Shown here: in pieces, positions 3,341-13,217 of the stretch
How positions within the stretch are numbered: position 1 is the first letter of the stretch
How the letters are laid out: each line of letters begins with the position of its first letter
DNA from: an uncultured SAR86 cluster bacterium
GTDB taxonomy: Bacteria > Pseudomonadota > Gammaproteobacteria > Magnimaribacterales > Magnimaribacteraceae
Length of the DNA stretch: 47,806 bases
NCBI GenBank assembly: GCA_938048695.1
Contig: CALIUO010000001.1
Span: 1-47,806 of the forward strand
Direction: 5' to 3'
Position numbers and translations under genes: made by a program
The notes under the pieces: generated by a model
Told to the model about the DNA's origin: nothing
The model's database searches: none
The model's input: the letters and a program-made list of their open reading frames with translations, nothing else

Positions 3341-4921
3341 ATGAACAAATTTTTACTCAACACATTATTCATACTCTTGTTAGCAAGCTGCAGTAATGAC
3401 AATGAGTCAAATCTTGAAGTTTTTATAACAGGAGCAGAGATAGCGGGTGTTAATGGAATGCATTTTGGTCCTGATGGATATCTCTATGCAGCTTCAGTGA
3501 TTGGATCAGACATAACAGTTATTGATACTGAAGATAAGAGTATAGTCAAAAGGTATGGTCTATCTGATGGTGTAATTGGCCCAGATGATGTGGCATTTAA
3601 TTCAAAAGGAGAGTTCTTTTGGACATCGATACTAACAGGAGAAGTTGCGGGCTTTAATACGAATGGAGAAAAGGTAATTGCGGGTAATCCAGGACCAGGT
3701 GTAAATCCTATTACTTTCTCCGATGATGATAGATTGTTTGTAGCACAGTGTTTCTTTGATAATGGACTTTTTGAATTAGATTCAAATGGAAATAATGAAC
3801 CTAGAGTTATTTTTAACGAAATAGGGGAGTTTTGTGGCTTGAATGGAATGGACTGGGGGCCGGATGGAAGATTATATGGACCCAGATGGTTTAATAATGA
3901 AGTGGTAAGTGTTGATGTAGATACTGGTGATATTCGTAAAGAGGCTAGCGGTTTTACAGTACCTGCAGCTGTAAAATTTAACTCAAAAGGAGAGCTTTTT
4001 GTATTAGATACAGGGGCTGGAAAAGTTGTAAAAGTCGTGGATGGTAAGAATTCCGATTATGCTTTTATAGAAAATGGTCTAGATAATCTGGCCTTTAACA
4101 AAAAAGATGAACTTTTTGTTTCCAGTTATTCTGAAGGATATGTATTAAGAGTTTCCGAAAATACTGTAGAGCCTATTTTACCTGGTGGTATTTCCCATGC
4201 TGGTGGCATAGCGATAATAGGTAACGACATAGTGGTTGCAGATATCCAATCCGTAAAAGCTTATAACACTGAGGATGGATCAGAATCGTGGAACTACAAA
4301 AATACTTTTAGAGTATCGCCAATGGGAGCCAATACATCTGTATCAACTTATGATAATAATTTAATTCTGACAAGTTGGTTAGATGGTCACGTAAAGGTAA
4401 TGAGACCAGATAATGGAGAAATTATCGAGAGTTTGGACGCCCTTAATATTCCAGTATCAGCAACTAAGTTTAATAATCAAATTGCTATTGCTATGCATGG
4501 TGATAAATCGATAACTTTACACGATTTCAAAACAGGTATTAATACAGTTCTTGCAGATGGATTTGTTGCTCCAACTCATGTCATAAATTATCAAGATAAA
4601 TTGCTTGTTTCCGACAGAGGAACCGGTGAATTATTATCGATTGATGTAAAAGGTAATAAAAATATAGTCGTTGAAGGGCTCAATTCACCTGAGGGCATAG
4701 CTATCAAAGGTGGTTCAATATTTGTATTTGAAGGCGATACGGGAGAAGTCAAAGAAATAAGAAATAACACTATATCTGTAATTGCTAGAGTAAATTCAGG
4801 CAGTAATGCTCAATCTGAATTACAACCTCCATCAATGGTTTTTAACGGTTTAGCAATTAAAGGTGATTACTTATACATATCAGGAGAATTAGAAAAATCA
4901 CTATTTAGAATCAAAATCTGA
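3341..4921 (+). CDS. Lipoprotein with NHL/SMP-30-like beta-propeller repeats
   Basis: This 526-residue protein begins with a lipoprotein signal: a hydrophobic stretch, then LLASCSN, with the cysteine as likely lipid-attachment residue. The rest consists of repeated blade-like segments such as GMHFGPDGYLYAAS, VAFNSKGEFFWTS, GMDWGPDGRLYGP and VKFNSKGELFVLD, typical of NHL or SMP-30/gluconolactonase-like propellers. It is probably anchored at the outer or inner membrane facing the periplasm. The substrate cannot be inferred. A good ribosome-binding site (AGGAG) stands at 3331-3335. The stop codon abuts an ORF leading into the next exported protein, suggesting a two-gene operon. Confidence 0.82.
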   Translation: MNKFLLNTLFILLLASCSNDNESNLEVFITGAEIAGVNGMHFGPDGYLYAASVIGSDITVIDTEDKSIVKRYGLSDGVIGPDDVAFNSKGEFFWTSILTGEVAGFNTNGEKVIAGNPGPGVNPITFSDDDRLFVAQCFFDNGLFELDSNGNNEPRVIFNEIGEFCGLNGMDWGPDGRLYGPRWFNNEVVSVDVDTGDIRKEASGFTVPAAVKFNSKGELFVLDTGAGKVVKVVDGKNSDYAFIENGLDNLAFNKKDELFVSSYSEGYVLRVSENTVEPILPGGISHAGGIAIIGNDIVVADIQSVKAYNTEDGSESWNYKNTFRVSPMGANTSVSTYDNNLILTSWLDGHVKVMRPDNGEIIESLDALNIPVSATKFNNQIAIAMHGDKSITLHDFKTGINTVLADGFVAPTHVINYQDKLLVSDRGTGELLSIDVKGNKNIVVEGLNSPEGIAIKGGSIFVFEGDTGEVKEIRNNTISVIARVNSGSNAQSELQPPSMVFNGLAIKGDYLYISGELEKSLFRIKI

Positions 4922-5718: not shown

Positions 5719-6262
5719 AATATACTCGATTAATTTGAGCAACGTTCTTAGTAGGCTCACCATCTAACATGACAATGTTTTCAAAAGTTACAGAGTCATC
5801 AGAATTCATTACCCATTTCATATTTGTTACAAAGCTTTCATGTTCGGCATGAAGATCAGCCTTAGATTTATCTAACTTTATAGACATTGATTGAGAAGAC
5901 AATTTATCAACCTTGAAAACAGGCTCTGTTCCCAAGCCACAATAGTGTCTTACTACAAGCTCACCGTCATCATCGCTATACGTTGTCAACATTTGTACGC
6001 CGTCCTCTATAAGAGTTTCGGTAATGGTATTTCCTCCAGATGTAAGTGCAAATTCATAGGAAACATCAATTACTGCACCATTTAGTCCTTGAACCATTGT
6101 TCCTTCCCATTTTCCAAGTTTTTTTCTAACTTGTTCAAAAGCTGCGCTCTTTTTGTCTGCAGCCATCTCAACATCACCAATCTTTACTGTTTCATCTGCA
6201 AAGACAGAAAGTGAAAGAAATAGGGAAAGAAACATAGAATATATACTTATTTTAGTTTTCAT
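5717..6262 (-). CDS. Exported small protein, lipocalin-like DUF1579-type, unknown function
   Basis: The start at 6262 gives 181 residues with a clear signal peptide (MKTKISIYSMFLSLFLSLSVFA, cut after VFA). An ATG 12 bases upstream (6274) is in frame, but its next codons read AGGAAA, which serve better as the ribosome-binding site of the start chosen here. The mature part (LGKWEGTM, YEFALTSGGNTITETLI, RHYCGLGTEP, TFENIVM) alternates strands and turns as in small lipocalin-like beta-barrels of the heme-binding-like or DUF1579 type; this family assignment is tentative. It stands alone, divergent from the VOC operon, with its stop inside the shared terminator. Confidence 0.72.
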   Translation of the reverse strand: MKTKISIYSMFLSLFLSLSVFADETVKIGDVEMAADKKSAAFEQVRKKLGKWEGTMVQGLNGAVIDVSYEFALTSGGNTITETLIEDGVQMLTTYSDDDGELVVRHYCGLGTEPVFKVDKLSSQSMSIKLDKSKADLHAEHESFVTNMKWVMNSDDSVTFENIVMLDGEPTKNVAQINRVY

Positions 6263-6307
6263 TTTTTTCCTCATTAATTAAAAAGTACTTACAATTTAAA
6301 TCATTCA

Positions 6308-6352
6308 CACTTAATTGCAATATAAGTTACATTCATTAATATAACTTAAGTG
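6308..6352. promoter_or_regulatory. Possible operator in the divergent promoter region
   Basis: The 109-base region between the divergent starts at 6262 and 6372 carries two nested inverted repeats: TAAGTTA (6323-6329) with TAACTTA (6342-6348), and CACTTAA (6308-6314) with TTAAGTG (6346-6352). A strong Shine-Dalgarno (GAGGAGG, about 6360-6366) precedes the VOC gene. In such AT-rich DNA short dyads also arise by chance, so a regulator site is only a possibility. Confidence 0.3.
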
Positions 6353-6371
6353 CTACGAAGAGGAGGGGAAA

Positions 6372-6923
6372 ATGATAAGAAATGATATACCTATAACTAA
6401 TGTGCATCATGTAGCCTTTAGATGTAGAGATGCAGAGCAAACTAGGTGGTTCTATGAGGATATATTAGGTCTCAAATTAGCAGCAGCTATGGCCTTTGAC
6501 CATTTATCTGGTACAGATAAGAAGATCGAATATATGCACATTTTTTTTGAAATGGTAGATGGTAATTACATTGCTTTCTTTGATGATCCCTACAATGCTC
6601 CTGAAGATTTCTTTGTAGATATGAATGGGTTTGATAGCCATGTTGCTGTTGAGGTTGAATCAATGAAGCATTTAAAAGCAATCGAATCTAAACTTAATTC
6701 TATAAATTGGGATTCTTTTATAATTGACCATGAGTTTGTCACTTCTCTATATATTTTCGATCCTAACGGAATCCAGCTTGAATTTACCTGTAGAGCTTTA
6801 GATCATGACAAAATTATGGCGGAAGATGCCTCTAAGGCTCATCAAGAGATAGAAGATTGGACTGAAAGAACGAAAGCATTGAAAGTAGAAAAATTTGGTG
6901 AAAAATCATTAGCCAAGAAATGA
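6372..6923 (+). CDS. VOC-family (glyoxalase/extradiol dioxygenase superfamily) protein
   Basis: This 183-residue protein carries one vicinal-oxygen-chelate domain: NVHHVAFRCRDAEQTRWFY at the start, GFDSHVAVEVES in the middle and YIFDPNGIQLEFT near the end. H13, H90 and E137 occupy the places of the usual two-His-one-Glu metal site, so a metal-dependent oxygenase, isomerase or lyase activity is plausible. The C-terminal 40 residues are a charged helical tail. A strong ribosome-binding site precedes it. It is the first gene of a coupled trio with an alpha/beta hydrolase and an HMG-CoA-lyase-like enzyme, which suggests a catabolic step on a ring or branched substrate. The substrate is unknown. 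Confidence 0.82.
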   Translation: MIRNDIPITNVHHVAFRCRDAEQTRWFYEDILGLKLAAAMAFDHLSGTDKKIEYMHIFFEMVDGNYIAFFDDPYNAPEDFFVDMNGFDSHVAVEVESMKHLKAIESKLNSINWDSFIIDHEFVTSLYIFDPNGIQLEFTCRALDHDKIMAEDASKAHQEIEDWTERTKALKVEKFGEKSLAKK

Positions 6924-8089
6924 AGAATACTCCTCCAAAATATAAACGAATACCTTTAATAATTGCCTTTCAAGAAAACTCCCAATACAAAGATACTTAT
7001 GCAGGTGAAATAGGAACAGTTGCTTTAACTGCGCATCTATTGAAACCTGAAAATTCTGAAAGTAAGAGCGTAGTTGTGTTTATGCATCCGACAGGAGGCG
7101 GAAGTTACTTACCTATGCTTAATTCATTAGCTAAGCAGGGAATCGACACAGTATGGTGTGATAGTAGATACAGAGGAACTGATTCTGCACTAATAATGGA
7201 AAAGGTTCTAATAGATCTAGGAAACTGTATTAAACATCTTAAAGAAGTGCACGGATATGAAAAGGTTGTGCTTGGTGGATGGAGCGGAGGGGGTTCATTA
7301 TCATTATTTTATCAATCACAAGCAGAAAAACCTTCAATAACTGAAACACCAGCTGGAGATCCAATTGATTTAGTATCAGAACAATTTATTCCTGCTGATG
7401 CTGTTATGTTAATTGCTGCTCATGAATCTCGACATAGAACTTTTACTGAATGGCTTGATGGCTCAGTAATAGATGAAAGCAATCCTGAAAAAAGACAACA
7501 AGATTTAGACATCTACGACATAAACAATCCAAATCAACCTAAGTACACAGATGAATTTATCAAAGTCTATAGAGAAGCACAGATTTTAAGGAACAGAAAA
7601 ATAACCAGCTGGGTTCAGGATAAATTAAATGATTTTAAGAAAAAAGGATATCAGAATAGGGAGTATGGGTTTATCGTGCATCGCACTATGGCAGATCCCA
7701 AATGGTTAGACCCTTCAATTGATCCAAATGGAAGACGGCCAAACTGGTGTTTTTTAGGTGAACCAGAGATCGTGAATAATAGTCCTATAGGTTTAGCAAG
7801 ATATTGCTCACTAAGGAGCTGGTTATCTCAATGGAGTTATGATTACTCAAGAGGTGATGGCCTAAGTTGTGCAAACGATATTACAGTTCCTTGTCTTGTA
7901 ATAGGCAATACAGATGATGATGGAATAACGCCTTCACATACTAATAATTTATACGATTCCATAGGTCATACAAATAAGCAATTAGAATGGATAGAAGGAG
8001 CAAATCATTATTATTTTGGTCAACCGGAAAAGGCAAATGAGTCTGCAAGAATTTGTAAATCATGGCTTGATGAAAAAGGATTGATCTAA
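6920..8089 (+). CDS. Alpha/beta hydrolase, probably catabolic
   Basis: The protein has 389 residues and no signal peptide, so it is cytoplasmic. FMHPTGGG (about 54-61) provides the oxyanion region, GGWSGGG carries the nucleophile S122, the acidic residue is probably in NTDDDG (332-334), and H363 in GANHYYFGQ completes the triad. About 150 residues between the serine and the acid (roughly 140-290) form a large insertion or lid, longer than in simple esterases. The start overlaps the VOC stop (ATGA) and the stop overlaps the lyase start (TAATG), so the three are expressed together. Its task could be thioester, ester or C-C bond hydrolysis; the sequence does not decide. Confidence 0.83.
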   Translation: MKNTPPKYKRIPLIIAFQENSQYKDTYAGEIGTVALTAHLLKPENSESKSVVVFMHPTGGGSYLPMLNSLAKQGIDTVWCDSRYRGTDSALIMEKVLIDLGNCIKHLKEVHGYEKVVLGGWSGGGSLSLFYQSQAEKPSITETPAGDPIDLVSEQFIPADAVMLIAAHESRHRTFTEWLDGSVIDESNPEKRQQDLDIYDINNPNQPKYTDEFIKVYREAQILRNRKITSWVQDKLNDFKKKGYQNREYGFIVHRTMADPKWLDPSIDPNGRRPNWCFLGEPEIVNNSPIGLARYCSLRSWLSQWSYDYSRGDGLSCANDITVPCLVIGNTDDDGITPSHTNNLYDSIGHTNKQLEWIEGANHYYFGQPEKANESARICKSWLDEKGLI

Positions 8090-8955
8090 TGGATATAGTT
8101 AGTATTAATGAAGTAGGTCCAAGGGACGGTCTGCAGAATATCAAGAATATTCTTTCCGTAGATGAAAGATTAAAGCTAATAAGATCTTTAGAAGAAGCGG
8201 GAATAAAGTTAATAGAAATAGGTAGTTTTGTAAGTCATAAAGCAGTTCCGGCAATGAGTGACACAGATGAATTAATATCTCAATTGGGTAATATCGAAAA
8301 TTACTCTGTTCTAATACCGAATGAGAAAGGTCTGGATAAAGCTAAAAATAATGGAGTAAAAGAGATTTGTACTGTTCTTTGTGTAACAGACAGCATGAAT
8401 AAAAAAAATATTAATCAAACAGTAAAAGAAACTCTTAGGGATTTAAAAAAAATATTTCTAGAAACAAAAGATAGCGGTATACGTTCGAAATGTTACGTAT
8501 CAGTAGCGTTTTATTGCCCATATGAAGGCAAAGTAGATTCATGTTATGTAGAGGATGTAATTGGATTGCTGTTAGATTATAAAGCTGACGAGATTGTCAT
8601 AGCGGATACTATTGGCGCAGCGAATCCTAGAGAAGTCAAAAAACTTTTATCTTCAATAATAAATAACTATAAAGATATTAATATGTCGTGCCATTTTCAT
8701 GACACTCGTGCACTTGGATTGGCGAACGTATATGCCAGTCTCGATGCCGGTATAAAAAAATTTGATTCGTGTATTGGCGGTCTAGGAGGTTGTCCATTCG
8801 CTCCAAATTCATCAGGAAATCTTGCCACCGAAGATCTTGTTAGTATGTTAGAAATGATGAATATCACAACAGGTGTTAATTTAGATAAATTAATTTCTTC
8901 CAGGGAACTGGCTTCTGAATTTACACATATGTCCCTTAAGGGACGAATGATCTAA
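8089..8955 (+). CDS. HMG-CoA lyase-like DRE-TIM metallolyase
   Basis: HMG-CoA lyase splits 3-hydroxy-3-methylglutaryl-CoA into acetyl-CoA and acetoacetate; relatives cleave other 3-hydroxy-3-alkyl acyl-CoAs. The 288-residue protein keeps the active-site set known from the human enzyme: R12-D13 in VGPRDGLQN, the metal ligands H202 and H204 in CHFHDT, the signature cysteine C235 in GLGGCPFAP, and N244. The segment after the cysteine reads NSSGN instead of the usual GATGN, a small deviation. It closes the coupled VOC-hydrolase-lyase operon. Leucine catabolism is the default role, but no methylcrotonyl-CoA carboxylase or isovaleryl-CoA dehydrogenase lies beside it, so a different branched acyl-CoA is equally possible. 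Confidence 0.88.
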   Translation: MDIVSINEVGPRDGLQNIKNILSVDERLKLIRSLEEAGIKLIEIGSFVSHKAVPAMSDTDELISQLGNIENYSVLIPNEKGLDKAKNNGVKEICTVLCVTDSMNKKNINQTVKETLRDLKKIFLETKDSGIRSKCYVSVAFYCPYEGKVDSCYVEDVIGLLLDYKADEIVIADTIGAANPREVKKLLSSIINNYKDINMSCHFHDTRALGLANVYASLDAGIKKFDSCIGGLGGCPFAPNSSGNLATEDLVSMLEMMNITTGVNLDKLISSRELASEFTHMSLKGRMI

Positions 8956-9128
8956 TACTGTCTTTTGTAACAAAAACAGGTGTTTAAAATCTTATCTTAA
9001 ATATTCTCTTATCCTAGATATAGGTGTTTTATATCTCTAAAGCACTATATTGAGTTATTATATGTTCGTATAATATATATTATGTTAAATTGTATACTTA
9101 TCAACAATTCTATACATATAGTTATAGA
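8956..9128. other. Longest intergenic stretch, between convergent genes
   Basis: This 173-base gap lies between the ends of the lyase and phoD genes. A weak hairpin (CTGTCTTTTGT with ACAAAAACAG, 8959-8979, one bulge) follows the lyase stop but lacks a proper T tract. The rest is extremely AT-rich, with runs such as TATAATATATATTATG. No convincing gene, tRNA, repeat or standard terminator is visible. Confidence 0.5.
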
Positions 9129-10712
9129 TTAAGTGCTATAAGGTTTGTTGTGCTCTACTCTGAACTGATAAGGCTCTAATAGATCATATTGTTGTGATTT
9201 CACTGTTGATATGAACTTAAACGATACGTCTATATACTCTTCCGTAATATCCATGCTTACATAACCTTTATGCCTGCCATTCATCCACATTAAGTCTTTG
9301 TTTTCATCTACAAATGCTTTTTCAACAACTTCTGTTAACTCGCCTAGACTGTCGCCGAGACTCGGTGAAGAAATAGCAGGCGCCCCTACCTCTATCCCTT
9401 TAAACTGGTTTTTTTCATCATATAGATTTGAAAACCATGCGTTGTGTGAATCTCCTGCTAGGATTACATTTGATTGAGATTGCGAAATAATCTCATAAAA
9501 TTTCTCCCTTTCTAGTGGATATCCATCCCATTGATCAGTGTTAATTGGTACTTTTTCACCCGCCAACTGTTTTGATAGATACGATCTAGAACTGTCTAAT
9601 TTATCTGATTTAAAAATTCTAGGTAAGTACTTCGGTCCAATCAAAAGTTGTTGTCCAAATATAGACCATTTGAATTCTATATCTATTTTTTTACTAACCC
9701 AATTTAGCTGCTCATTTCCTAATAAGGCCCTAGGTTTTAGTAAATCTTTTTTAAAATTTTCTTTATCCAGTATTTGGTCTTTTATATAAGAACTTATTTC
9801 TAATTGTTTATCTCTTCCATATAATCTTGTATCCAACATTACTAGGTTTATTAACTTTCCTATTGAAAATTTTCTCCATATTTTATCTTTTGCACCATTC
9901 TCTCTTATAGGCATCCATTCATAATAAGCTTTTACGGCATTATTTTTTCTATCTTCAAACGAGCCTTCACCTCTATTATGATTTTGAGCACCTGTTTTCC
10001 AAGTATCGTTAGTTATTTCGTGGTCGTCCCAGACAACTATCATGGGCTTGGATTTATGCAGTTGCTGTAAATCTTTATCACTTCTGTAAGTTGCATATCT
10101 TTGGCGATAATCATCCAGAGAAACAATCTCATTAGATGGATTTACCACTCTCCCCATTTTTTTTGCATCCGAAGATGCATATCCCTTCCTGCTATATTCA
10201 TAAAGGTAGTCCCCTAGATGAAGCACTAAATCAACTTCCTTATCGTTAGCCATTTCTTTATAAGCATTAAAGTAACCAGCTGGATAATTTGAGCAGCTGC
10301 AAAAAGCTATATTATATTTTTCAGGGTTTTGAATTGGTAATGTGGCTGTTATACCTATATCAGAATGAATATCGTGTGATTTAAATCTGTAGTAGATTTT
10401 TTTTGCATTATATTCAAGTGGTATCTTTGCATCTACTTTAACAGTGAAATCATCTATTGGTTTTGCTTTAGCAAATCCGCTTGTTATTATTTTATTAAAA
10501 GTAGTATCTGGCGAGACTTCCCAAATAACTGCTTTTTCGACACGCTCTTCGGTTGATATTTTTGTCCAAAGGATAACTTGGTGATTAGTAGGATCTCCGC
10601 TTGCTACTCCATAATCAAAAGAAAGGTTTACTTTTTTATTCGATGCTATTAATTTGAAAGATAATGAGGAGAGAAAAAACAGTAAACTTCTAATAAATAA
10701 TCTTCTATTCAT
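9129..10712 (-). CDS. phoD: PhoD-type alkaline phosphatase / phosphodiesterase
   Basis: PhoD enzymes are Tat-exported, calcium- and iron-dependent phosphatases that release phosphate from organic mono- and diesters in the periplasm. The 527-residue protein starts MNRRLFIRS followed by a hydrophobic stretch, a plausible twin-arginine signal. The N-terminal domain begins FDYGVASGDPTNHQVILWTK, typical of PhoD. Metal-binding motifs are visible: HLGDYLYEY, VVWDDHE and ILAGDSHNAW. The gene is single, with a short AT-rich promoter region (10713-10767). No recognisable Pho box was found there, so phosphate control is only assumed from the family. Length and motifs look intact. Confidence 0.93.
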   Translation of the reverse strand: MNRRLFIRSLLFFLSSLSFKLIASNKKVNLSFDYGVASGDPTNHQVILWTKISTEERVEKAVIWEVSPDTTFNKIITSGFAKAKPIDDFTVKVDAKIPLEYNAKKIYYRFKSHDIHSDIGITATLPIQNPEKYNIAFCSCSNYPAGYFNAYKEMANDKEVDLVLHLGDYLYEYSRKGYASSDAKKMGRVVNPSNEIVSLDDYRQRYATYRSDKDLQQLHKSKPMIVVWDDHEITNDTWKTGAQNHNRGEGSFEDRKNNAVKAYYEWMPIRENGAKDKIWRKFSIGKLINLVMLDTRLYGRDKQLEISSYIKDQILDKENFKKDLLKPRALLGNEQLNWVSKKIDIEFKWSIFGQQLLIGPKYLPRIFKSDKLDSSRSYLSKQLAGEKVPINTDQWDGYPLEREKFYEIISQSQSNVILAGDSHNAWFSNLYDEKNQFKGIEVGAPAISSPSLGDSLGELTEVVEKAFVDENKDLMWMNGRHKGYVSMDITEEYIDVSFKFISTVKSQQYDLLEPYQFRVEHNKPYST

Positions 10713-12008: not shown

Positions 12009-13217
12009 ATGAAACCATTAAATGGAATTAAAGTTATAGACCTGACACATATGTTAGCAGGCCCATATGCTGGTATGGTCATAGCAGATCTTGGAGCTGA
12101 AGTTGTAAAAGTTGAACCTTTAAGAACCGGAGAAATGACCCGCGGTCTTCTTAAATCAGATCCAGATTACTCATTTAAAGACTTTGGTGCCTATTTTCTA
12201 ACGCTTAATAGAAATAAAAAAAGCGTATCTTTAGATCTTAAATCAGATGAAGGATTGAAAGTTTTTTATAATCTAGTTAAGTCTGCTGATGTAGTTTTAA
12301 ATAATTTTAGTGCTGGAGTAGTAAAAAAACTTAAAGTTGACTTTGATTCGTTGAAAGCGATAAATCCAAGAATCATTACCTGTTCTATAACTGGATTTGG
12401 TGAAACAGGCCCCCACTCCACAAGGCCAGCTTATGATCAGATTGTTCAAGCTTACAGTGGAGGCATGTCTATTACTGGTCCAGATGCAAATACCCCTACA
12501 AGAGCAGGTATACCAATTGGAGATTTAGGATCAGGTTTATATAGCGTAATTGGCATATTATCTGCACTCCTTTCTCGCGAGCAAACCAATAAAGGTCAGC
12601 ATATAGATATGTCGCTTTTAGATGTTCAAATATCTCTGTTAACTTATATGGCAACTATGCAGACACTTTCAAATATTGACCCCGAACCGATAGGAAATGC
12701 TCATTTTGTGCATGTTCCTTACAATAGTTTTACCACACAAAATGGCTTTGTTGTTATTGCTGTTATTACCGATGCTTTCTGGCAGGCGCTCTTAGATGTC
12801 GTTGATGTAGAAACTTTGAGAGATCCTAAATTTAGTAAATCAGTTGATAGATTAAAGAATCAAGAATTTATAGAGTTAGAGCTAAATAAAGTTCTTTCTA
12901 CTAAGCCTTCTGATTATTGGATAAAAGCATTAAATGAAGCAAAAGTTCCTTGCGGACCAATCAATACTTTCAGTCAAGCTTTAACAGATGAACAAGTTAT
13001 ACACAGAGATATGGTTGTAGAGGTTGAACATCCTGATGGAGGGAAAGTTAAAATGCCAGGAAATCCAGTAAAACTTTCTTATACAGATGAAGTTTCCTAC
13101 ACCCCTCCTCCTCATTTAGGAACTCATACAAGAGAGATTCTTAAAGAATGGGGGGATTACGATGATGACAGTATCCAAAATCTAATAGATAAAAATATTA
13201 TTCAATCAGTAAACTAA
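12009..13217 (+). CDS. Class III (CaiB/BaiF-type) acyl-CoA transferase
   Basis: Family III CoA-transferases move CoA between carboxylic acids through an aspartyl-CoA intermediate. The 402-residue protein shows all landmarks: the N-terminal LNGIKVIDLTHMLAGPYAGM, VVKVEP, SLDLKSDEG, SITGFGETGP, and the catalytic aspartate D172 in IPIGDLGSG. The C-terminal NPVKLS and HLGTHTREIL are also typical. Substrate cannot be read from the sequence; family members act on formyl/oxalyl-, carnitine, mesaconyl/succinyl- or steroid CoA esters. The gene appears to be monocistronic on the plus strand, and its 3' end overlaps a possible small ORF on the other strand. Confidence 0.92.
   Translation: MKPLNGIKVIDLTHMLAGPYAGMVIADLGAEVVKVEPLRTGEMTRGLLKSDPDYSFKDFGAYFLTLNRNKKSVSLDLKSDEGLKVFYNLVKSADVVLNNFSAGVVKKLKVDFDSLKAINPRIITCSITGFGETGPHSTRPAYDQIVQAYSGGMSITGPDANTPTRAGIPIGDLGSGLYSVIGILSALLSREQTNKGQHIDMSLLDVQISLLTYMATMQTLSNIDPEPIGNAHFVHVPYNSFTTQNGFVVIAVITDAFWQALLDVVDVETLRDPKFSKSVDRLKNQEFIELELNKVLSTKPSDYWIKALNEAKVPCGPINTFSQALTDEQVIHRDMVVEVEHPDGGKVKMPGNPVKLSYTDEVSYTPPPHLGTHTREILKEWGDYDDDSIQNLIDKNIIQSVN

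Follow-up and report, generated by a model that had tools for sequence, protein, structure and literature searches.

A losable trio of VOC, alpha/beta-hydrolase and HMG-CoA-lyase-like genes in SAR86 bacteria, tentatively read as a cassette for para-diol ring catabolism

The window analysed here, a whole stretch of 47,806 nucleotides from a SAR86-like genome that is 85% complete, carries three coupled genes for a VOC protein, an alpha/beta hydrolase (ABH) and a protein of the HMG-CoA lyase family (HMGL), which recur together in relatives and can be lost as one block. We tentatively read the trio as a cassette, open to loss, for the breakdown of a para-diol aromatic ring of the hydroquinone or homogentisate type, a possible rather than a probable assignment, in which a VOC–ABH–CaiB–HMGL route would also draw on a CaiB-type CoA-transferase encoded nearby. 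SAR86 bacteria are among the most abundant of the surface ocean and, according to PMC11582366, the chemical identity of their aromatic food is not known. A cassette that is variably present and leaves a clean empty site offers a direct genetic handle on this question.

All three genes lie on the forward strand. The VOC gene (6372..6923) encodes a one-domain protein of 183 aa, the ABH gene (6920..8089) a protein of 389 aa and the HMGL gene (8089..8955) a protein of 288 aa that falls in a CaiB-paired clade. Their coordinates bear out the overlaps of four and one bases described in the first-pass annotation, with ATGA at the VOC/ABH junction and TAATG at the ABH/HMGL junction. Where it had placed a ribosome-binding site before the first gene, a Shine-Dalgarno-like stretch on the same strand (6356..6371) has AGGAGG just upstream of the VOC start. 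The divergent promoter region that it had suggested was abandoned, as the scan gave 9 consensus sites, fewer than the 14.6 expected in shuffles.

Across 35 genomes of the SAR86 family, VOC and ABH are found in an identical set of 17, and HMGL stands directly behind ABH in 11 of these 17. The trio with very similar junctions occurs in 11 genomes of the family, the source genome counted, a recurrence that is beyond chance. For these counts, HMGL matches weaker than E 1e-20 were dropped (G004, G009 and G029, with second weak ones in G000, G006, G016 and G017), as were VOC matches weaker than E 1e-16 (G008 and G012) and second weak VOC matches (G000, G005, G013, G017 and G019); an HMGL fragment at a contig end (G010) and the partial VOC of G007 and ABH of G001 were scored as present. 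The loci L001–L011 overlap largely with the trio genomes of the G000–G034 set, and no locus was counted twice. In G030, a 95%-complete relative without the trio, both flanks are retained at the same spot: the short interval that it has in place of the trio matches 6206-6337 and 9011-9190 of the window, which delimits the absent block as 6338..9010 (no strand assigned). Since the trio is missing there with its flanks intact, it constitutes one losable block. The conservation of the three-gene order in relatives, which the first-pass annotation had proposed to look for, is thus seen in 11 genomes with the source included, but the conserved core is VOC–ABH only. HMGL accompanies this pair in one section of SAR86 and is elsewhere coupled to CaiB.

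HMGL belongs to PF00682 and passes the NCBIfam HMG-CoA lyase model NF004283 (307 bits, for a cut-off of 246). It resembles the TIM-barrel HMG-CoA lyases 1ydo, 2cw6 and 2ftp in sequence (E 1e-54 to 1e-64) and in its catalytic residues R12-D13, H202, H204 and C235, but differs from them in being coupled to VOC–ABH and CaiB and in its position in the tree, where a split with support 100/99 sets the trio lyases, together with CaiB-paired ones of the same kind, apart from the liu-type lyases, of which three were sampled. It could still be an ordinary HMG-CoA lyase, ending a Liu/Atu (leucine/acyclic-terpene-type) route encoded elsewhere and simply sharing its operon with VOC–ABH, an explanation that we regard as unlikely while granting it appreciable weight. 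Besides the NCBIfam match, it is the sole strong HMGL of the 85%-complete source genome, which contains an AtuA-carboxylase-enoyl-CoA hydratase cluster without an HMGL of its own. However, HMGL does not lie beside MCC/liu genes, and the carboxyltransferase of the AtuA cluster, which shares 40-42% identity with each of two liu MCC subunits, is found in 26 of the 35 genomes, including G030 and G024, both without a strong HMGL match; its presence is not associated with that of HMGL (p 1.0). The standard leucine-pathway lyase that the first-pass annotation had considered was rejected as first choice on these two grounds, the lack of association with the carboxylase cluster and the tree position outside the three liu-type lyases. 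The search for a CoA-transferase of the PF01144 kind gave 0 matches in the genome, which speaks neither for nor against the HMG-CoA reading.

The proposed, non-obligate partner of HMGL in the cassette reading is a CaiB/BaiF class III CoA-transferase (12009..13217, forward strand), about 3 kb downstream of the trio, which had not been connected to it earlier. Its five closest plasmid relatives (52-54% identity, the next one at 42%) each have an HMGL directly after them, and the same five plasmid loci top the search with the Cupriavidus HMGL. Within SAR86 the two genes look unlinked: CaiB of the window type, for which a minimum of 67% identity was required (25 genomes, including one with a fragment; the matches at 56-59% were kept separate), is present in many genomes without HMGL, and over the 35 genomes no association was observed (p 0.72). 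Linkage within SAR86 was therefore discarded as proof, and its absence weighs against the main reading. CaiB, HMGL, leuC, leuD, VOC and ABH do occur together in Sphingobium TKS and MI1205; identity to the window proteins is only 28-35% for the CaiB and HMGL of Sphingobium, which also lie elsewhere in the tree, a distance that counts on the same side. Only one LeuCD set was found in the source genome, so that no dedicated citraconate hydratase is evident, another point on that side.

The VOC protein (PF00903) has as its top structural match 9u42 (Z 17.9, rmsd 2.1, 163 residues aligned, 30% identity), an Acinetobacter VOC-type protein whose title reads homogentisate 1,2-dioxygenase; the phmmer match is at E 4.2e-22, with 30% sequence identity across 171 residues. 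H13, H90 and E137 are invariant in the 24 aligned VOCs and are the same residues in 9u42. H56, H120 and Y127 are likewise common to the 24 VOCs and 9u42; we take them to be the further His and Tyr of ring-cleaving VOCs, by analogy with extradiol enzymes. The similarity to the Acinetobacter enzyme thus covers the one-domain VOC fold and six key His/Tyr/Glu positions, whereas the setting differs, the partner here being ABH; four other ABH-partnered VOCs reach 50-53% identity to 9u42. Position 71 is acidic in all 24 VOCs (D71 here, E in 9u42) and could supply the metal with a fourth ligand, as happens in glyoxalase I. This possible ligand and the 30% identity both weigh against the main reading. 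The tyrosine/homogentisate route as in Acinetobacter was rejected: no Hpd above the model cut-off and no HmgA were found in any of the 35 SAR86-family genomes, so tyrosine-derived homogentisate is not the VOC substrate by the usual route. The lack of Hpd in the family is again unfavourable to the main reading.

In ABH (PF12146), S122, D333 and H363 form a triad in the order nucleophile-acid-His that is kept without exception in the 45 ABHs aligned; with it, the catalytic residues that the first-pass annotation had listed for the three proteins were confirmed by alignments and residue checks. Its predicted structure (pLDDT 93.6) has a best fold match at Z 23.4 (rmsd 3.0, 247 residues aligned), the matches including esterases, lipases and a PETase. 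No characterised ring-fission hydrolase is among the best 50 fold matches listed, which is not evidence against such a role. ABH shows no significant sequence match to three fumarylacetoacetate hydrolases (FAHs), and its likeness to FAH is proposed as one of role only. The family, of about 390 aa, spans several classes and catabolic plasmids; no characterised member was found, and no published work on the trio or on this family was recognised in the literature searched, which omits most subscription journals.

VOC–ABH pairs are also found in other classes. A VOC gene lies on the fetched stretch at only 24 of 51 ABH loci, with none on the stretches fetched around the Parvibaculum ABH loci, a proportion that does not favour the main reading. 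Starting from VOC, relatives adjoin either this ABH or an FAH: among 11 hand-picked plasmid loci, ABH lies within about 3 kb in 7, FAH adjoins in 3 and a maleylacetoacetate isomerase (MaiA) is present in 1. VOC relatives occur in aromatic-degradation clusters, next to FAHs or a MaiA, and their further neighbours include a Rieske oxygenase, FAD-dependent oxygenases and hydroxycinnamoyl-CoA hydratases. The Zhongshania GST is nearest to disulfide-bond oxidoreductases and is not MaiA-like, which also tells against the main reading.

A different explanation, which we hold to be quite unlikely, is that VOC is a glyoxalase-like isomerase/epimerase or detoxifying enzyme and that ABH works on what VOC produces as an esterase or lactonase, with no ring cleavage. 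The best curated models for VOC are generic glyoxalase-like ones, the acidic position 71 is as expected for a fourth ligand, and the esterase, lipase and PETase folds fit this scheme; yet the nearest protein by either measure, sequence or structure, bears the name of a dioxygenase and shares these residues, and the neighbours of the VOC relatives include FAH, MaiA and the oxygenases and hydratases listed above. A catechol-type extradiol (meta-cleavage) dioxygenase with its hydrolase, as in the generic catechol/steroid ring degradation already proposed for SAR86, seems improbable: near-universal catechol 2,3-dioxygenase annotations reported in SAR86 (PMC11582366) and weak VOC matches to NCBIfam catechol_2_3 and HsaC point that way, but these scores are far under the cut-offs (21.1 of 320 and 19.2 of 450 bits), ABH matches neither the HsaD nor the BphD model at E 0.001, and the FAH partners of VOC relatives indicate a para-diol product.

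The residues, the folds, the order of the genes, their joint inheritance and their surroundings are established, whereas all the activities, the substrate and the hydration step of the cassette reading are inferred. VOC would be an Fe(II)-dependent dioxygenase cleaving the para-diol ring, and ABH would carry out direct C–C hydrolysis of the ring-fission diketone, filling the role held elsewhere by fumarylacetoacetate or maleylpyruvate hydrolases and releasing a cis (maleate-type, probably methyl-branched) diacid and a keto acid. The diacid might then be hydrated to an (R)-hydroxy-diacid, perhaps via a LeuCD-type hydratase, and CaiB would convert this citramalate- or HMG-type acid into its CoA thioester. 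HMGL would finally split this thioester, for example citramalyl-CoA into acetyl-CoA and pyruvate, or HMG-CoA into acetyl-CoA and acetoacetate. The oxidise-hydrolyse-split route suggested by the first-pass annotation fits in outline, but its last enzyme is not part of the conserved core and does not look like a lyase of the leucine pathway. Of the two carbon sources then considered, the aromatic one is favoured because the nearest solved VOC relative is named as a ring-cleaving dioxygenase and because VOC relatives lie in aromatic clusters; an isoprenoid variant is less favoured but conceivable, because the genome carries the AtuA-carboxylase cluster.

The closest parallels in known systems are partial ones. 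Chloroflexus uses a class III succinyl-CoA:citramalate CoA-transferase and an HMGL-family (R)-citramalyl-CoA lyase, to our knowledge with no aromatic partners. The gentisate pathway with HbzF, in Pseudomonas alcaligenes and Sagittula MA-2, resembles the proposed route in its ring cleavage followed by direct hydrolysis of the cis product. The Sagittula MA-2 cluster further has, like the SAR86 case, both an HMGL and an acyl-CoA transferase, located between NagKL and the maleylpyruvate hydrolase HbzF; the cleaving enzyme is gentisate 1,2-dioxygenase and the hydrolase HbzF, in contrast to SAR86, and no VOC–ABH pair of the SAR86 kind is named in the table of that source (PMC11705938).

A more specific proposal, unlikely as it stands, is that the 2.7-kb cassette serves an undescribed aerobic surface-ocean route for methylated para-diols, in which VOC would open the ring, ABH, as a member of a new hydrolase family, would cut the cis product directly to a methylmaleate-type acid, and the CoA-transferase would complete the route together with HMGL, the latter as an (R)-citramalyl-CoA lyase. 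The substrates would perhaps be methylated hydroquinones from algae, such as plastoquinone or tocopherol. If ABH is a ring-fission hydrolase, a function could be given to many entries that now carry no more specific name than 'alpha/beta hydrolase', and the CaiB–HMGL pair would account for 'HMG-CoA lyases' unrelated to leucine.

The VOC, alpha/beta-hydrolase (ABH) and HMG-CoA-lyase-like (HMGL) genes form a real, conserved cassette. All three are intact and lie on the same strand, VOC at 6372–6923, ABH at 6920–8089 and HMGL at 8089–8955, in a genome of 1.33 Mb (59 contigs, 85% complete) with SAR86 cluster bacteria as its nearest named relatives. The overlaps of four bases (VOC/ABH) and one base (ABH/HMGL) described in the first-pass annotation were confirmed. 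The catalytic residues it named were all found as well, the VOC set being invariant in 24 of 24 aligned VOCs and the ABH set in 45 of 45 ABHs, and D333 completes the hydrolase triad. Its proposed promoter upstream of VOC found no support.

All 35 genomes of a SAR86-family survey were examined for the three genes. Strong ABH and VOC matches coincide in 17 and are both missing in the other 18 (p 2e-10, uncorrected for kinship). Strong HMGL matches occur in 16 genomes, 14 with ABH and two without (p 3e-5, also uncorrected), and three ABH genomes have no HMGL. In the window's own genus, ABH is present in 6 of 19 genomes and HMGL in the same six. HMGL lies directly behind ABH in 11 of the 17 ABH genomes. 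These genomes are incomplete, so that absence from one MAG is weak evidence, but this does not affect the site in G030, a family genome in one contig (95% complete), which carries genes that flank the trio in the window (57–80% identity) and lacks the trio itself. The left side of the short gap in G030 aligns to window 6206–6337 and the right side to 9011–9190, which makes the block between 6337 and 9011 the unit of gain or loss. A beta-propeller protein gene (3341–4921; weak ScyD/ScyE and NHL matches) is conserved next to this site, also in the absence of the cassette. At four related loci (L008, L009, L010 and L011; e.g., L009:4398–5402), the position directly upstream of VOC is taken not by the 185-residue divergent gene but by another alpha/beta hydrolase, about 334 residues long and perhaps an esterase feeding the route. 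In one SAR86-type genome the trio is followed downstream by another HMGL copy, shortened at its 5' end (L009:8777–9457, on the same contig as L093:5014–5694).

The PDB entry 9u42 is the nearest solved chain to VOC by sequence (E 4.2e-22) and also ranks first among the structural matches (Z 17.9, rmsd 2.1, 163 aligned, 30% identity). The function of 9u42 is taken from the title of the entry, which names an Acinetobacter homogentisate 1,2-dioxygenase with Zn; our literature search found no paper on it. Positions H13, H56, H90, H120, Y127 and E137 are all common to VOC and 9u42, and four ABH-partnered VOCs (L043, L044, L045, L048) are 50–53% identical to 9u42. H120 and Y127 stand at what we take to be the places of the catalytic His and Tyr in extradiol dioxygenases. 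Each of the 24 VOCs, like 9u42, has an acidic residue at position 71, so the metal site may be a four-ligand, glyoxalase-like one.

The AlphaFold model of ABH (pLDDT 93.6) has the alpha/beta-hydrolase fold, with esterases and lipases as closest matches (7qjn: Z 23.4, rmsd 3.0, 247 aligned). No matching solved structure or curated family names a function, and the literature search found no paper on the trio or the ABH family. The proposed role of ABH is read from the other partners of VOC. Eleven plasmid VOC loci were chosen by hand from a listing of 61 records or via ABH matches, a non-random sample; seven have ABH within about 3 kb, three have an adjoining fumarylacetoacetate-hydrolase-family gene, and one has a maleylacetoacetate isomerase (MaiA, over the cut-off) with a different hydrolase. 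Their surroundings include FAD-dependent oxygenases/oxidoreductases, a Rieske oxygenase, hydroxycinnamoyl-CoA hydratases and CoA ligases. Of the 51 stretches fetched around ABH relatives, several of which are truncated, 24 have a VOC relative on the ABH strand and upstream of it (SAR86, Halieaceae, Zhongshania, Rhizobiales, Sphingomonadales, Betaproteobacteria and, with a weak 23% relative, Acidimicrobiales); the Parvibaculum stretches fetched have none. HMGL of the window kind is found at 11 of the 51, ten SAR86-type and Zhongshania, which suggests that VOC–ABH is the older pair and that HMGL joined it later. Two Halieaceae-type loci (L015:5983–13011, L018:3342–10959) have a single run of genes encoding ABH, SDR, GST, an unknown protein of 440–483 residues, a member of the PF12261 family, an AMP-binding enzyme and an iron enzyme resembling haem oxygenase; in L018 the run includes VOC.

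HMGL passes the HMG-CoA lyase model and matches solved lyases. A leucine- or terpene-type route elsewhere in the genome could be what it serves, and this stays alive because it is the genome's only strong HMGL. Genes for AtuA, biotin carboxylase, a carboxyltransferase and enoyl-CoA hydratase are clustered in the genome (L105:4894–14866, contig C48), with no HMGL among them. However, the AtuA-cluster carboxyltransferase occurs in 26 of the 35 family genomes, among them G030 and G024, where there is no strong HMGL, and its presence does not track HMGL (p 1.0).

Para-diol ring cleavage by VOC, hydrolysis by ABH and an ending through HMGL and the class III CoA-transferase CaiB (12009–13217) is the most likely whole reading, held with a little less than even confidence; the ring-cleavage part, VOC–ABH alone, is somewhat better than evenly likely. 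A 2024 study proposed wide aromatic degradation in SAR86, with near-universal catechol 2,3-dioxygenase annotations and compounds not yet known; "hydroxymethylglutaryl" is absent from its main text (PMC11582366).

In an unrooted tree of 31 lyases, with some long branches and a partial Zhongshania row, the trio lyases fall on one side of a split (support 100/99), together with the lyases that adjoin CaiB in other SAR86 genera, Zhongshania and Cupriavidus. On the other side are three lyases of the liu type, four of the Sphingobium CaiB-LeuCD type and several more CaiB-adjacent ones, so that by this tree CaiB pairing alone does not define the clade. Plasmid searches with the window CaiB and the Cupriavidus HMGL (best 30 of 1214 and best 40 of 712 records) share their top five; these are the closest CaiB records (52–54%, the next 42%), and in all five the lyase is directly behind the transferase. 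In Comamonas and Variovorax the pair is accompanied by a gene of the isocitrate lyase/PEP mutase family, parts of a tricarboxylate transporter and PrpR, and in Tistrella by an arylmalonate-decarboxylase-type gene and an isochorismatase; these neighbours suggest branched hydroxy-di- or tricarboxylates and not leucine. In the first two the operon runs CaiB, HMGL, tricarboxylate binding protein, isocitrate lyase/PEP mutase, beside a divergent PrpR (L108:7784–11798, L109:7787–11794). Four genomes of other SAR86 genera (G002, G006, G007, G016) have a second CaiB directly before HMGL. Against a CaiB–HMGL partnership, 25 of 35 genomes carry a CaiB of the window type, which shows no association with HMGL (p 0.72).

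The route would end in citramalate or HMG; a citramalate-type ending is somewhat less likely than not. (R)-Citramalate or (R)-malate is the product of LeuCD-type enzymes, and in Chloroflexus a CaiB-type transferase occurs together with an (R)-citramalyl-CoA lyase of the HMGL family. One LeuCD set is present in the window's genome. Maleylpyruvate hydrolase converts the gentisate product to maleate (PMC5658364), dimethylphenol degradation is described as passing through methyl-substituted gentisates (PMC6127914), and the S configuration of citramalyl-CoA is noted to be the counterpart of R in HMG-CoA (PMC6689899). In the published phenanthrene/gentisate cluster of Sagittula MA-2, an HMGL and an acyl-CoA transferase are listed with NagL on one side and the maleylpyruvate hydrolase HbzF on the other, and the table ties neither to a known aromatic-degrading enzyme (PMC11705938). 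The plasmids of Sphingobium TKS and MI1205 carry CaiB-HMGL-leuC-leuD-VOC-ABH as one run, in which a divergent LuxR-type regulator separates VOC from ABH, but identity of the CaiB and HMGL to those of the window is only 28–35%. CaiB, HMGL and leuCD also stand together in AntQ-1 and TomTYG65, an unassigned module carried by all four Sphingobium plasmids (L073, L074, L080, L103).
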